Assembly (NCBI RefSeq): GCF_003402535.2
Contig: NZ_AP025170.1
Coordinates: forward strand, 310,001 to 374,000
DNA from: Cupriavidus sp. P-10
GTDB taxonomy: Bacteria; Pseudomonadota; Gammaproteobacteria; Burkholderiales; Burkholderiaceae
Direction of reading: 5' to 3'
DNA: 64,000 nucleotides
A program made the position numbers and the translations under genes. Below the pieces are notes generated by a model that was not told the origin of the DNA, made no database searches, and saw only the letters and a list, made by a program, of their open reading frames with translations. Of this stretch, positions 5,953 to 11,227 are shown one piece after another (within the stretch, counting starts at the first letter, position 1; each line of letters begins with the position of its first letter).

Positions 5953-6978
5953 TCAGACCGGACTGGCCCAGGTGACGCGGGTGCCCAGTTTCAGGCACTC
6001 GCGGATGGCTTCGACCTGCGTGGCGATCGGCACCGGCACCGGTACGGCGCCATCGAGCACGCGCCGGATCCATGCCGCGGTCAGGCCGGCATCGTTGCCG
6101 GGCGGCAGTTCCGGCACTTCGGCCAGCGAGCCACCGGCCGGATCGACCAGCGTCTGCTGATGGCCTTCATGCAACCAGTCGATGCGGCCGCTGCGGCGCG
6201 CATCGGCCACCACTTCACCTTCGGTGCCACGTGCCAGCAGCACGTTGGCCGGCTCGTGCGAGAAATAATCGGTCAGCGTCTCGCGGTATTCCGGGTGGGT
6301 ATAGCTGTACAGCCGCAACCCTTCGCCCGGGCTGTGCTCACCCACCGGCTGCAGCATCTTGGCCACGGTATGCGACGAATTGCGCAACCCGATCACGGTG
6401 CGCCGCTCCAGCAGCCGCGACAGGCCGGGCGACAGCACATCTACCGGCAGCACCGCCAGCGGGCCGTCGCCGCCGGTCTCACGCAGCCGTGCCGAGGCTT
6501 CTGCCGTGCTGGTGCACAGCGGAATGCCCAGCGCCTCGAACAGGGTCATGCTGGTGACGCGGTCATTGAATAGGCGAGTGCCGTGCACCAGTACGGGGAT
6601 GCCTTCGCGCGCCAGCAGCAGCGCCAGCAGCGGCACCAGGTTCGGTTGCTTGCGTGCGCCGTTATAGCTGGGGATCACCACCGCCTGGCGGTCGGGCGGC
6701 GCGGGCAGCGGCTGGCAGTGCGCATGGGCGGCTTCGAGCATGCCGGCAAGCTCGTGCGGGGCCTCGCCCTTGATGCGGTAGGCCATCAGGATCGCGCCCA
6801 GTTCGATATCGGACACGCGCCCGGCCAGCATCGCGTCGAACAAGGTCTGGGCGTCGTCGCGCGGCAGCGCGCGCGCGCCGTTGACGCCACGGCCGACCTC
6901 CTTGATATAGCGGGCGGCGGGGAATGGGCTGGCTGGCGTGGTCATGGCGGCGTGGGGAGGAGTCTGTGCTGGGTTCAT
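5953..6978 (-). CDS. ybiB: YbiB/TrpD2-like DNA-binding protein
   Basis: A 341-residue homologue of the anthranilate phosphoribosyltransferase fold (nucleoside phosphorylase/TrpD-like). It has an N-terminal helical domain (TLFDAMLAGRVSDIELGAILMAYRIKGE) and an alpha/beta domain with IPSYNGARKQPNLVPLLALLLA. E. coli YbiB of this subfamily binds nucleic acids and lacks TrpD activity. It is the last gene of the nitrate transport cluster, 61 bp after nrtD. A role in nitrate use is only suggested by position. An ATG at 6945 is an alternative start. Confidence 0.82.
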   Translation of the reverse strand: MNPAQTPPHAAMTTPASPFPAARYIKEVGRGVNGARALPRDDAQTLFDAMLAGRVSDIELGAILMAYRIKGEAPHELAGMLEAAHAHCQPLPAPPDRQAVVIPSYNGARKQPNLVPLLALLLAREGIPVLVHGTRLFNDRVTSMTLFEALGIPLCTSTAEASARLRETGGDGPLAVLPVDVLSPGLSRLLERRTVIGLRNSSHTVAKMLQPVGEHSPGEGLRLYSYTHPEYRETLTDYFSHEPANVLLARGTEGEVVADARRSGRIDWLHEGHQQTLVDPAGGSLAEVPELPPGNDAGLTAAWIRRVLDGAVPVPVPIATQVEAIRECLKLGTRVTWASPV

Positions 6979-7039: not shown

Positions 7040-7843
7040 TCATGCTGCCTCTTGCAGCGCCGGGTTACGCTGCTTGCGGTAGAGGAAGTCCAGTACCGCC
7101 GTGCGGCAGGCGTGGTAAGCCTTGTCGTCGGCCAGCGCCACGCGGTCGCGCGGGCGCGGCAGGTCTACCTTGAGGATCTCGCCGATGGTGGCGGCCGGGC
7201 CGTTGGTCATCATCACGATGCGGTCGGCGAGCAGCACGGCTTCATCGACATCGTGCGTGACCATCACCACCGTGCTGCGCGTGCGCGCCACGATCTTGAT
7301 CAGCTCGTCCTGCAGGTGCGCGCGCGTCAGCGCATCGAGCGCGCCGAAGGGTTCGTCCATCAGCAGCACCTTGGGCGCCATCGCCAGCGCCCGGGCAATG
7401 CCGACGCGCTGCTTCATGCCGCCGGAAATCTCATGCGGGTACTTGCCCTCGGCGTGCGTCAGGCCCACCAGCGCCAGCGTCTCGTGCGTACGCGCCTTGA
7501 GTTCGGCCTTGCCCTCGCTGGCGGCAAACACGCGTTCCACGCCCAGGTAGACGTTCTCGAAGCAGGTCAGCCAGGGCAGCAGCGAATGGTTCTGGAACAC
7601 CACGGCACGCTCCGGTCCGGGCCCGGCGATCTCGCGCCCGGCGCAGATCAGCGCGCCGGTGGTTGGCGTGGCCAGCCCCGCGATCAGGTTCAGCAGCGTG
7701 GACTTGCCACAGCCGGAGTGCCCGATCAGCGTGATGAACTCGCCCTCGGCAATCTGCAGGTTGATGTCGCGCAGGGCGACGAAGGGCCCCTTGCGCGTCT
7801 TGAAGGTCTGTCCGACGTTCTCGATGCTGACGAACTTTTCCAT
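7040..7843 (-). CDS. nrtD: Nitrate ABC transporter ATP-binding protein
   Basis: A 267-residue ATPase of the NrtD/TauB/SsuB class. Walker A is GHSGCGKST (residues 41-49), the Q-loop reads VVFQNHSLLPW, the signature is ISGGMKQRVGIARAL, Walker B is VLLMDEPFGALD, and the H-loop is MVTHD. It lacks the C-terminal NrtA-like domain of cyanobacterial NrtC. It lies 18 bp after nrtB and energises nitrate import through NrtB. The nitrate rather than sulfonate assignment rests on the NrtA homologue and nasT upstream. Confidence 0.9.
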   Translation of the reverse strand: MEKFVSIENVGQTFKTRKGPFVALRDINLQIAEGEFITLIGHSGCGKSTLLNLIAGLATPTTGALICAGREIAGPGPERAVVFQNHSLLPWLTCFENVYLGVERVFAASEGKAELKARTHETLALVGLTHAEGKYPHEISGGMKQRVGIARALAMAPKVLLMDEPFGALDALTRAHLQDELIKIVARTRSTVVMVTHDVDEAVLLADRIVMMTNGPAATIGEILKVDLPRPRDRVALADDKAYHACRTAVLDFLYRKQRNPALQEAA

Positions 7844-7861: not shown

Positions 7862-8773
7862 TTAGTTGGCGCCGTAGCTGAAGCGCCGTGCCAGTGCCAG
7901 CAATGCATGTTCGAGCATCAGCCCGATGACGCCGATCACGAAGATCGCGATCACGATGTGCTCGACCTTCAGGTTGTTCCACTCGTCCCACAGCCAGAAG
8001 CCGATGCCGGTGCCGCCGGTCAGCATCTCTGCCGCCACGATCACCAGCCATGCGGTGCCGATCGACAGCCGCACGCCGGTCAGCATGTAGGGCAGCACCG
8101 CGGGGAACAGCACCCGCGTGAACACCTTCCACTCCGACAGGTCGAGCACACGCGCCACGTTCAGGTAGTCCTGCGGCACGCGCGTGACGCCCACGGCGGT
8201 ATTGATCACCATCGGCCAGATCGAGCAGATAAAGATCGCCCAGATCGCCGCCGGGTTGGCGGCCTTGAACAGCAGCAGCCCGATCGGCAGCCAGGCCAGC
8301 GGCGAGACCGGCCGCAGCAGGCTGATCACGGGCGACGCCATCGCGTTCAGGAACGCAAAGCGCCCGATCAGGAAGCCTGCCGGGATGCCGATCACCGCGG
8401 CCAGGCCGAAGCCCGCGGCCACGCGCGCCAGCGACGCCAGCACGTTCCAGCCGATGCCCTGGTCGTTGGGGCCGTTGCGGTAGAACGGGTCGGAGAACAG
8501 CGGCACCGCCGCGTTCCAGGTTGTGCCCGGCGTGGGAATCGCCGGGATCAGCGTGGCGATGCCGTGCCAGGCCAGCACGAACAGGGCAAAGCCCAGTACC
8601 GGCGGCACGGCCTTGCGCACCAGGGCGCCGAGCGCGTCGCGGCGTTGCGCGCGCCGTTCCTGCGCGGCGATCTCCAGCTCGCGCCGCCGTGCGCGTTCCT
8701 TGGCATCGGTGTCGATGGCGGCGGCATGGGCCGCATTGGCGCCGTCAGGCGCGGTGTGGGCGATGGCATTCAC
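7862..8773 (-). CDS. nrtB: Nitrate ABC transporter permease
   Basis: A 303-residue inner-membrane permease of the NrtB/SsuC family with about six helices after a charged N-terminus (KERARRRELEIAAQERRAQRR). The EAA-type loop that contacts the ATPase is visible around PQDYLNVARVLDLSEWKVFTRVLFPAVLP. The start is GTG 8773, with AGGAG six bases upstream; the open frame continues further upstream but has no credible start. The gap to nrtA is 56 bp. Confidence 0.9.
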   Translation of the reverse strand: MNAIAHTAPDGANAAHAAAIDTDAKERARRRELEIAAQERRAQRRDALGALVRKAVPPVLGFALFVLAWHGIATLIPAIPTPGTTWNAAVPLFSDPFYRNGPNDQGIGWNVLASLARVAAGFGLAAVIGIPAGFLIGRFAFLNAMASPVISLLRPVSPLAWLPIGLLLFKAANPAAIWAIFICSIWPMVINTAVGVTRVPQDYLNVARVLDLSEWKVFTRVLFPAVLPYMLTGVRLSIGTAWLVIVAAEMLTGGTGIGFWLWDEWNNLKVEHIVIAIFVIGVIGLMLEHALLALARRFSYGAN

Positions 8774-8829
8774 GTCGGGCTCCTTTGTCCAGGGGCGCTG
8801 CGGATCAGCGGGGAGGTGGCGGCCTGGCG

Positions 8830-10170
8830 TCAGGCGTTCTGCGCGCCGGCCTTGATCTTGAAGCCGTCGGCGTACGCCTTCGGGTCCTTGGTGGCATCCC
8901 AGACCACGCCGTCGATCAGCTTCGCGGTACGGAAGTCGCTCTTGGGCAGCGGCACCTGCGCCGCGGCAGCGGCCTGCCTGAAGATGTCGATACGGTTGAC
9001 CTGCTTCGCCACGGCAAGGTAGTCCGGGTGGTCCTTGAGCAAGCCCCAGCGCTTGTGCTGGGTCAGGAACCACATGCCATCGGACAGGAACGGGTAGTTG
9101 GCGCTGCCGTCCTGGTAGAACTTCATGGCATCAGGATCGTCCCAGGTCTTGCCCAGGCCGTTGTTGTAGCGGCCGAGCATGCGGTCCAGGATGATGTCCA
9201 TGTCGGTGTTGACGTAGGACTTGGCGGCGATGGTCTCGGCGGTCTTGCGGCGGTTGGAGGCCGAAGCGTCGATAAACCTGGACGCTTCCAGCACCGCGGC
9301 CACCATCGCGCGCGCGGTGTTGGGGTACTTTTGCACGAAGTCCGCGGTGGTGCCGAGCGTCTTCTCCGGATGGTTCTTCCAGATCGACTGCGTGGTCTCG
9401 GCGGTAAAACCGATCTTGTCGGCGATGGCGCGCGCGCCCCAGGGCTCGCCTACGCAGAAGCCGTCCATGTTGCCCACGCGCATGTTGGCCACCATCTGCG
9501 GCGGCGGCACGGTGATGGCCTTGGCGTCCTGCATCGGGTTGATGCCGTGGGCCGCGAGCCAGTAGTACAGCCACATCGCGTGCGTGCCGGTGGGGAAGGT
9601 CTGCGCGAAAGTGTAGTCGCGCTTTTCCTTGACCATCAGCGCCTTCAGGCTGGCGCCGTCGCGCACGCCTTTTTCGGCCAGCTTCGACGACAGCGTGATG
9701 GCTTGGCCGTTGTAGTTCAGGTTCATCAGCACCGCCATGTCTTTCTTGGGGCCACCGATGCCGAGCTGTACGCCGTAGATCAGGCCGTACAGCACGTGCG
9801 CGGCATCGAGCTCGCCATTGACCAGCTTGTCGCGCACGCCGGCCCACGAGGCTTCCTTGGTCGGCGTGATCTTGATCCCGTATTTCTTGTCGATGCCGAG
9901 CGTGGACGCCATGACCACTGAAGCGCAGTCGGTCAGCGGGATGAAGCCGATGCGCACGTCGGTCTTCTCGGGGGCGTCGGACCCCGCTGCCCACGCCCCG
10001 GCGCGCACCAGCGGATCGACCAGCGTCATGACGCTGGCGCCGGCGATGGTCGCCAGCACGCGGCGGCGGCCGCTGCTGGCTGGCACCGCGTCGGCAGCGG
10101 CCGCCGAGGCGGCTTCAGAGGCGTTCACCGCCGCGTGCAGCGGCTTGGCAATCCTGAGGCGAGAAGGCAT
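8830..10170 (-). CDS. nrtA: Nitrate-binding protein, Tat-type signal
   Basis: A 446-residue CmpA/NrtA-family solute-binding protein. The start ATG 10170 follows GGAG and gives a long n-region, then SGRRRVLATIAGASVMTLV, a Tat-like signal. The mature protein starts near TDVRIGFIPLTDCASVV, the usual NrtA start, and contains FCVGEPWGARAI. It is the specificity component of the nrtABD importer. The signal peptide argues against its being NasS, the cytoplasmic NrtA-like sensor that partners NasT. It is preceded by an ANTAR target RNA and a terminator (10185-10315). Confidence 0.9.
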   Translation of the reverse strand: MPSRLRIAKPLHAAVNASEAASAAAADAVPASSGRRRVLATIAGASVMTLVDPLVRAGAWAAGSDAPEKTDVRIGFIPLTDCASVVMASTLGIDKKYGIKITPTKEASWAGVRDKLVNGELDAAHVLYGLIYGVQLGIGGPKKDMAVLMNLNYNGQAITLSSKLAEKGVRDGASLKALMVKEKRDYTFAQTFPTGTHAMWLYYWLAAHGINPMQDAKAITVPPPQMVANMRVGNMDGFCVGEPWGARAIADKIGFTAETTQSIWKNHPEKTLGTTADFVQKYPNTARAMVAAVLEASRFIDASASNRRKTAETIAAKSYVNTDMDIILDRMLGRYNNGLGKTWDDPDAMKFYQDGSANYPFLSDGMWFLTQHKRWGLLKDHPDYLAVAKQVNRIDIFRQAAAAAQVPLPKSDFRTAKLIDGVVWDATKDPKAYADGFKIKAGAQNA

Positions 10171-10184
10171 TGCGAAACTCCAAG

Positions 10185-10243
10185 AAAAAAGCGTCCCTGT
10201 CCGCGGCCGGCTTCGCCAGAAGACCGGTACGGTGCAGGGACGC
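10185..10243 (-). terminator. Leader terminator (attenuator) upstream of nrtA
   Basis: On the minus strand GCGTCCCTG (10235-10243) pairs perfectly with CAGGGACGC (10191-10199), directly followed by six T (10185-10190). A smaller CCGG/CCGG hairpin can form inside the loop. It lies 15 bases before the nrtA start, so it stops transcription before the gene unless antitermination occurs. Confidence 0.93.
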
Positions 10244-10258
10244 CGTTGTCCATGGCGT

Positions 10259-10315
10259 GACGCAGCCTGCGTTGGCTGTGTCCGCCTAAATTGTGATCGG
10301 CCGCCGTTGGCCGAT
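10259..10315 (-). ncRNA. ANTAR target leader RNA (two hexaloop hairpins) for NasT
   Basis: On the minus strand P1 has stem ATCGGCC/GGCCGAT with loop AACGGC (10296-10315). P2 has a 9-bp stem with one mismatch (GACACAGCC/GGCTGCGTC) and loop AACGCA (10259-10282). The linker is 13 bases. Both loops are six bases long with A at position 1 and G at position 4, the pattern recognised by ANTAR proteins. The terminator follows directly. NasT is the obvious ligand, because its gene is next door. Confidence 0.9.
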
Positions 10316-10326
10316 GACTGCATATC

Positions 10327-10341
10327 GCAAGGCGTGTGCCA
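10327..10341 (-). promoter_or_regulatory. Sigma-54 promoter for the nrtA leader
   Basis: The minus strand reads TGGCACACGCCTTGC, which matches TGGCAC-N5-TTGC with exactly 10 bases between the -24 GG and the -12 GC. Transcription would start near 10315, the first base of hairpin P1. That agreement in position supports both calls. Confidence 0.85.
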
Positions 10342-10475
10342 GCCTGTGCGGTGCAGCATTTCGGGGCGGGACTGTACCGGCGGAGTGACGCATCGGGTCG
10401 AAATGGGCTGGCACGGTGCGTGCGCCGACCGCGCTGCCGCATCGCGGGGCAGCGCGGCGGGAGGCGGTTAGGGGA

Positions 10476-10591: not shown

Positions 10592-11227
10592 TCAGCCCAT
10601 CACGTCGATCACGCGCTGGGCGGCGTCGACCAGTTTCAGGCCGCGCTCCATCGCCATGCTGCGCAGGCGCTTGTAGGCCTCGTCCTCGCTGATGCCGCGC
10701 GCCTGCATCAGCAGGCCCTTGGCGCGCTCGACCACCTTGCGCTCGGCCAGCTTGAGGCGGGTGGCGTCGAGTTCGGCGCGCAGCTGCTGGTCCAGCTCGA
10801 AGCGGGCATAGGCGACGTCGAGCACCGTCTTGACGCGCTCGGCGCGCAGGCCGTCAACGATATAGGCGGTAATGCCCACCGACAGCGCGGCCTTGATGCG
10901 CTGGCTGTCGTCGTTGTCGGTAAACAGCACGATGGGCCGCGGCGCATGCTGGGTCGAGACGCAGACATGCTCGATGGTGTCGCGCGCGGCAGACTCCGAG
11001 GCGATGATCAGCATGTCGGGCTGGGTGGCGGTGATCACGTCCGGCAGGTGCAGGTCGGCATCGACGATCTGGATCTCGCTGAAGCCGGCGCTGAGCAGCC
11101 CGTTGCGGATGGTTTCGACGTTGAGCGGGTTGGCGTCAAGGGGATCGCGCACCAGCAGGATACGAAGCGTCCGTCCGGCGGCGGGGGCAGGCGTCGATGG
11201 CGAGGGGGGCGGATGGCGTCGGGTCAT
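10592..11227 (-). CDS. nasT: NasT-like ANTAR antitermination regulator
   Basis: A 211-residue protein with a receiver-like N-terminal domain and a C-terminal ANTAR RNA-binding domain ([33 protein letters not shown]). In the receiver the usual phosphoacceptor site reads [11 protein letters not shown], with Ala76 where Asp is expected, so classical phosphorylation is unlikely. NasT-type proteins bind two-hairpin leader RNAs and prevent termination of nitrate assimilation genes. Such an RNA lies just downstream of this gene. The start ATG 11227 was chosen because the open frame upstream has no protein-like composition. No nasS is in the window. Confidence 0.9.

Follow-up and report, generated by a model that had tools for sequence, protein, structure and literature searches.

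In Cupriavidus sp. P-10 the nitrate uptake operon nrtABC lies beside a gene for the ANTAR protein NasT, and the locus raises the question of how NasT would control the operon and what would signal nitrate to it. The window (the whole stretch of 64,000 nucleotides analysed) contained nrtA (8830–10170, minus strand), encoding a nitrate-binding protein with a twin-arginine signal that scored 355.6 bits with PF13379 in the window and matched Synechocystis NrtA 2g29 at E 8e-85. On the same strand were nrtB (7862–8839, start assumed; permease, TIGR01183, 244.8 bits, cut-off 209), nrtC (7040–7843; ATPase, TIGR01184, 343.2 bits, cut-off 291.8) and, upstream of nrtA, nasT (10592–11227, start assumed; receiver-ANTAR protein, PF03861, 70.4 bits). 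The last gene of the nrt run was ybiB (5953–6978, minus strand; NF006005, DNA-binding protein YbiB), which stayed beside nasT-nrtA in Cupriavidus even after loss of nrtBC, and likewise in genomes G038 and G017.

The leader between nasT and nrtA

A sigma-54 promoter and an ANTAR antitermination leader had been predicted before nrtA, and all of their elements were present on the minus strand between nasT and nrtA (10185–10341). Read along that strand, the order was a -24/-12 promoter, three hairpins (H1, H2 and H3), a terminator with six T and the nrtA ATG at 10170. The promoter, TGGCACACGCCTTGC (10327–10341), had 10 of 11 consensus letters with both GG and GC in place, and five such sites were found when both strands of the window were scanned. 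Transcription was predicted to start near 10315, where H1 begins, as in the original prediction. A second sigma-54-like site, TGGCACGGTGCGTGC (10409–10423, plus strand), pointed into nasT antisense and is possibly due to chance.

H1 (10296–10315; ATCGGCC-AACGGC-GGCCGAT), detected by folding and a hairpin scan, and H2 (10263–10278; CAGCC-AACGCA-GGCTG), detected by folding, carried the two hexaloops, AACGGC and AACGCA, that had been noticed for their A at position 1 and G at position 4 (A1/G4). An outer stem extended H2 to about 10254–10286 on folding. The earlier list of elements was correct as far as it went, but overlooked a third A1/G4 hairpin, H3 (10238–10251; GGAC-AACGGC-GTCC), identified by the hairpin scan, terminator overlap and folding. 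The 3′ arm of H3 doubled as the 5′ arm of the intrinsic terminator (10185–10244), whereas H1 and H2 had no overlap with it. The terminator did end in six T (10190–10185), but its stem had 10 pairs (5′ arm 10244–10235, 3′ arm 10199–10190) and not nine, and the gap to the nrtA ATG was 14 bases and not 15. A simple terminator scan had passed over it because its loop is longer than the scan permits.

An ANTAR leader is recognised by at least two hairpins of at least three pairs with A1/G4 hexaloops, and by a P2 hairpin overlapping the 5′ arm of an intrinsic terminator. H1, H2 and H3 were all hairpins of this kind, and H3 had the overlap, so that the proposed pair of H1 and H2 ahead of a separate terminator had to be replaced by an arrangement with H3 as the antiterminator (P2). 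In place of exactly two hexaloops the nrt leader had three, which, judged from the sequence, makes it a variant; two-loop relatives with the same build exist.

The leader folded at -71.3 kcal/mol (z = -5.5), and none of 200 shuffles was equally low. Among 5000 dinucleotide shuffles, at least two A1/G4 hairpins occurred in 20 and three in none, while a terminator was present in 388, a hairpin-terminator overlap in six and the full layout in none. Only one of 3194 window tiles (both strands) had the full layout, and this was the nrtA leader itself. The four pairs of H3 had probabilities of 0.97–0.99 with the RNA ending at H3, about 0.77 eight bases past the end of H3 and 0 once the 3′ arm of the terminator was included, and forcing H3 carried a penalty of 12.9 kcal/mol. 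Folding thus showed that the terminator excludes H3, the same exclusion as that of P2 and terminator in the published ANTAR leaders, as described in excerpts of PMC3369931 and PMC3369936. The covariance-model search that had been suggested as a check, with both hairpins expected to match, turned out differently: Rfam gave tRNA only and no ANTAR family in the window.

Very probably this element serves the nrtABC operon as an ANTAR antitermination leader that responds to NasT. Transcription by sigma-54 RNA polymerase would start near 10315, and H1, H2 and H3 would fold on emergence. With no active NasT, the 3′ arm of the terminator would capture the 3′ arm of H3 and transcription would stop before nrtA. 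A NasT dimer on two hexaloops, one of them that of H3, would stabilise H3, and the polymerase would pass; the partner loop would be that of H1, as in a second leader of this genome, or of H2. We infer that NasT binds the leader, that sigma-54 and NtrC activate transcription and that nitrate provides the signal. Two published results, taken from excerpts of the papers, count against the leader reading: lengthening the linker by 20 bases abolished antitermination by EutV (PMC8934654), and a change in the second hairpin had little effect in Paracoccus (PMC5424462). The distance from H1 to H3 is 44 bases here unless the spacer hairpin folds that up.

The original prediction also joined nitrogen limitation (NtrC/sigma-54) and nitrate (NasT) in an AND gate. 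Such a gate is plausible because NtrC dependence has been reported in relatives: according to excerpts of the two reports, nasT, a nitrate-binding protein and nirB fall in Burkholderia cenocepacia without ntrC (PMC5491218), and in Acidovorax citrulli without ntrC a gene called nasS falls and nasT rises (PMC10052978). NtrC-like sites were weak; the best in the window had 9 of 12 letters, and the mean best site over 117 loci was 9.4, against 7.9 in mononucleotide shuffles.

Conservation of the leader and the role of H2

In a Cupriavidus set with a match in 56 of 60 genomes, 50 loci were read, that of the window included. The leader was found in 47, a sigma-54 site scoring at least 9 within 260 bases of nrtA also in 47, nasT in 48, and nrtB or nrtC in 46. 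As anticipated for the loops, A1 and G4 were kept in H1 and in H3 of all 47 aligned leaders; they were kept in H2 of 44. It would also be conceivable that a plain terminator merely halts read-through from nasT, which precedes the promoter by about 250 bases on the same strand, and that the hairpins have no regulatory meaning. This is extremely improbable, since the promoter is situated between nasT and the hairpins, the loop letters that ANTAR domains need never varied in H1 and H3 of those 47 leaders, and a second leader of the same kind is located far from nasT.

The best 80 loci encoding NrtA relatives served as a betaproteobacterial set, and a strict rule found the leader in 61 of them. 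Leader and nasT occurred together in 54, the leader only in seven, nasT only in eight and neither in 11 (p = 1e-4, kinship ignored); 11 of the 19 leaderless loci were thus also without nasT, while the seven leaders without nasT nearby and the eight reverse cases count against the leader reading. The strict rule missed L031, L051, L055, L086 and L088, which a looser scan accepted; the last hairpin of L043 and L085 had no clear T run in the stretch examined, and L015 had no leader. Of 30 sampled genomes, 27 had an ANTAR protein, and the three without one were all leaderless. In eight loci (L023, L024, L028, L029, L032, L033, L036 and L037) an nrtA lacking both nasT and leader had as its neighbour, on the opposite strand, a diverged nrtABC whose NrtA was about 33% identical.

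Covariation between the last two hairpins was scored over 57 diverse leaders, in a set whose upstream hairpins were chosen by stem length, which favours pairing. The score was 0.449; shuffles gave 0.152, and slid controls no more than 0.123. This score speaks for the leader reading. The choice by stem length counts against it, as does the number of pairs with changes in both arms (6 of 9), which 33 of 500 shuffles also reached. Of 120 family genomes 77 had an ANTAR protein, and the 13 genomes matched by model R1 all belonged to these 77. As 64 ANTAR-bearing family genomes had no R1 match at 0.001, R1 describes the form of this lineage and not ANTAR targets generally. A plasmid search with the leader DNA gave no match.

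A second ANTAR leader (L278) was found in the same genome at C2:634000–644500 (minus strand), far from nasT and upstream of narK-nirBD. The genes behind it encoded a NarK-like transporter (307.7 bits, slightly below the model cut-off of 311.7), nirB, nirD and a NirB-like reductase. Its order was a sigma-54 site, H1, a spacer hairpin whose loop was not A1/G4, and H3 with the terminator. The nas leaders of all 13 Cupriavidus genomes read had A1/G4 loops in H1 and H3 but not in the middle, and their H3 started 88 to 96 bases after the promoter start, against 90 in the nrt leader. From this matching layout, H2 occupies the place of the spacer hairpin with an ANTAR loop, and it looks like a former spacer hairpin in which such a loop arose.

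As H1 and H2 of the window leader both have A1/G4 hexaloops, they could in principle be the ANTAR pair, with the terminator a separate downstream element. We regard this as very unlikely: the terminator overlaps H3 and neither of the other two, and in two Cupriavidus nrt leaders A1/G4 is missing from H2 and kept in H1 and H3. The middle loop of the 13 nas leaders led us to reject H1 and H2 as the working pair. The A1/G4 loop of H2 was lost, with those of H1 and H3 kept, in G069 and G002, genomes in which nasT is not beside nrtA and NIT-ANTAR proteins are present (G002 has one further ANTAR protein elsewhere); it was lost in one of the other 45 Cupriavidus leaders (p = 0.003, kinship ignored).

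An outside set of 66 leaders (window included) was scored by a procedure that depends on RNAfold and overlooks a few middle hairpins (L070, L079). An A1/G4 middle hairpin was seen in 31, and the H1 loop failed A1/G4 in 13 of these by script and in 12 by eye; among the 35 leaders without such a middle hairpin it failed in five. It is as if the duty of P1 could shift from H1 to H2, so far as these sequences indicate. With its single NasT, its nrt leader of three loops and its nas leader of two, this one genome offers a natural comparison that bears on which hexaloops an ANTAR dimer uses.

Over its own genome R1 gave 15 matches up to E = 10, with the nrtA leader at the top (42.4 bits). Seven others (30.0 down to 18.1 bits) were rejected, none having the leader layout by eye, and the top two of them lay antisense to or inside long open frames. 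A 17.6-bit match beside nirB was the nas leader, scoring low because R1 penalises its long linker, and the idea of the nrtA leader as the only target in the genome was thereby rejected.

NasT, NrtA and the possible source of the nitrate signal

A profile search found NasT, of the receiver-ANTAR type, as the only ANTAR protein in the genome, and Pfam matched only its ANTAR domain and no NIT domain. The leader, described earlier as of nasF/nasR type, is therefore assigned to the NasT and not the NasR kind. In the NasT receiver an Ala occupies the position of an Asp in the solved relative 6wsh that we take to be the phosphorylation site; in 128 NasT rows this position was A in 69, D in 44, E in nine, Q in three, K in one and a gap in two.

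In the known systems nitrate causes NasS, a cytoplasmic protein related to NrtA, to release NasT (excerpt of PMC3795266). A PF13379 search of the genome found no NasS gene: NrtA scored 357 bits, the next of the 14 matches scored 95, and the rest scored lower. Proteins beside nasT on S. meliloti pSymB and in Pigmentiphaga scored 253 and 303 bits. Among the 27 ANTAR-bearing sampled genomes (some assemblies incomplete), 16 had no second PF13379 protein above 200 bits, one had one beside nasT, and 10 had an unlinked one of 270–289 bits, possibly another NrtA or else a NasS encoded away from nasT. The original prediction overlooked that NasS is missing.

Since no NasS was found, NrtA is the likeliest source of the signal, and this step, taken alone, has about an even chance of being right. 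Tentatively, and with somewhat less assurance, we propose that NasT works without NasS in Cupriavidus and many other betaproteobacteria and that NrtA is the sensor. Nitrate-free NrtA would hold NasT, nitrate would release it, and the binding protein would thus control its own operon and narK-nirBD; on loss of nrtBC, NrtA would lose its export signal and become NasS in place. As a Tat substrate NrtA would fold in the cytoplasm prior to export. It is possible, if rather doubtful, that NasT acts without NrtA, either sensing nitrate with its own receiver or some unknown partner or as an always-active protein following its NtrC-controlled supply, the loss of NasS being regulatory decay. The NrtA of the window, bearing an export signal and sitting with nrtBC, would fit such independence; an always-active NasT would make a conserved attenuator pointless.

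Relatives that lack nrtBC beside nasT-nrtA bear on both proposals. There were eight, and in seven of them the export signal was altered or gone and the motif CVGEPW was changed to CAGEPW, which speaks against a NasT independent of NrtA. Four were Cupriavidus genomes (G079, G115, G174 and G160) that kept nasT and nrtA but gave no match to nrtB at 1e-30 or to nrtC at 1e-90. Their signals were altered after the twin arginine, and these sequences suggest loss of NrtA export; signal hydropathy was rejected as proof of it, the four values (1.15–1.60) overlapping those of apparently intact signals (1.31–1.82) in the rows printed. Mature NrtA had a dN/dS of 0.16–0.22 among the four, and of 0.08–0.11 among five with nrtBC. 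This purifying selection on an NrtA beside nasT also argues against NasT acting alone. The narK-nirBD leader was present in all four; the nrtA leader was intact in G160, reduced in G174 to a remnant lacking the sigma-54 site, and missing from G079 and G115. The other three, from other genera (G038, G037 and G053), had no twin-arginine signal, and the stretch read contained no nrtBC; a search for nrtC in G038, a genome that is 70% complete, found none.

All seven signal-altered proteins had CAGEPW, while among 113 NrtA rows whose locus includes nrtB or nrtC, CVGEPW occurred in 110, CAGEPW in none and no such motif in three. As a general mark of NasS, CAGEPW was rejected: nine NasS-like rows showed A in five, C in one and V in three, and V is also found in the protein encoded next to nasT in S. 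meliloti (GFCVGAPW). Other cases favour a NasT independent of NrtA. The eighth relative, G017, retained signal and CVGEPW with nrtBC missing from the stretch; it is among 14 rows with CVGEPW and no nrtBC seen, which include two from NasT-less genomes and loci cut short. In nine nasT-less loci (L040 and the eight listed above, which adjoin a diverged nrtABC) NrtA persisted without its own nrtBC downstream, so that it can stand alone for other reasons, and the odds of NrtA as the sensor are lowered a little.

Trees required four changes between signal-less and other states, and in the wider tree well-supported branches impose at least three of these; the direction at the base (NrtA to NasS or the reverse) was not fixed by them. 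In L295 and L296 (G037 and G053) a sigma-54 site and an ANTAR-type leader stood directly before the signal-less NrtA/NasS-like gene (60% identity, CAGEPW, nasT upstream, no nrtBC in the stretch); by its sequence, the sensor gene itself may there lie behind an attenuator.

If NrtA is the sensor, a transporter binding protein would double as a cytoplasmic regulator reporting on its own substrate, a single genus would hold steps from transporter part to NasS-type sensor, and the naming of nrtA and nasS beside nasT would be corrected.

Relation to known systems

The nrt leader resembled the nasF, amiE and eut ANTAR leaders, as given in excerpts of PMC3369931 (Ramesh et al. 2012) and PMC3369936 (Stewart and van Tilbeurgh 2012), in its A1/G4 hexaloops, the last overlapping the 5′ arm of the terminator, and in the ANTAR protein in the genome. 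It differed from the leaders described there in having three hexaloops, and the nas leader differed in the plain spacer hairpin between P1 and P2. The NasT-type protein and the leaders before nitrate assimilation genes were as in NasS-NasT of Paracoccus, Azotobacter and Pseudomonas (excerpts of PMC3795266 and PMC5424462); unlike in the accounts given there, no NasS was found, nasT lay beside nrtABC, and Ala stood at the phospho-Asp position. The NrtA beside nasT is a NasS relative with an export signal, unlike the cytoplasmic NasS of PMC3795266 (excerpt). Enterococcus EutX RNA, in an excerpt of PMC8934654, likewise has an extra single hexaloop beside a dual hexaloop motif, but here the third loop is in an operon attenuator.

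The leader class is known. The 2012 survey has hits in Burkholderia, and some of these leaders may be listed in it. In the open-licence PMC literature no paper was found on a three-hexaloop attenuator or on NrtA as a partner of NasT; the three-loop form and NrtA in place of NasS look new.

ANTAR antitermination of nitrate assimilation genes is also the mode of Klebsiella NasR, a NIT-ANTAR protein. The window leader would share the sigma-54/NtrC setting of NasR. Unlike NasR, the protein of the window has no NIT domain, and two other Cupriavidus genomes carry NIT-ANTAR proteins. NIT-ANTAR (NasR-like) proteins were seen at L094 and L113 in other Cupriavidus genomes, and at L099 by sequence likeness only; adjoining L094 and L113 was a frame that by eye resembled a formate/nitrite transporter.
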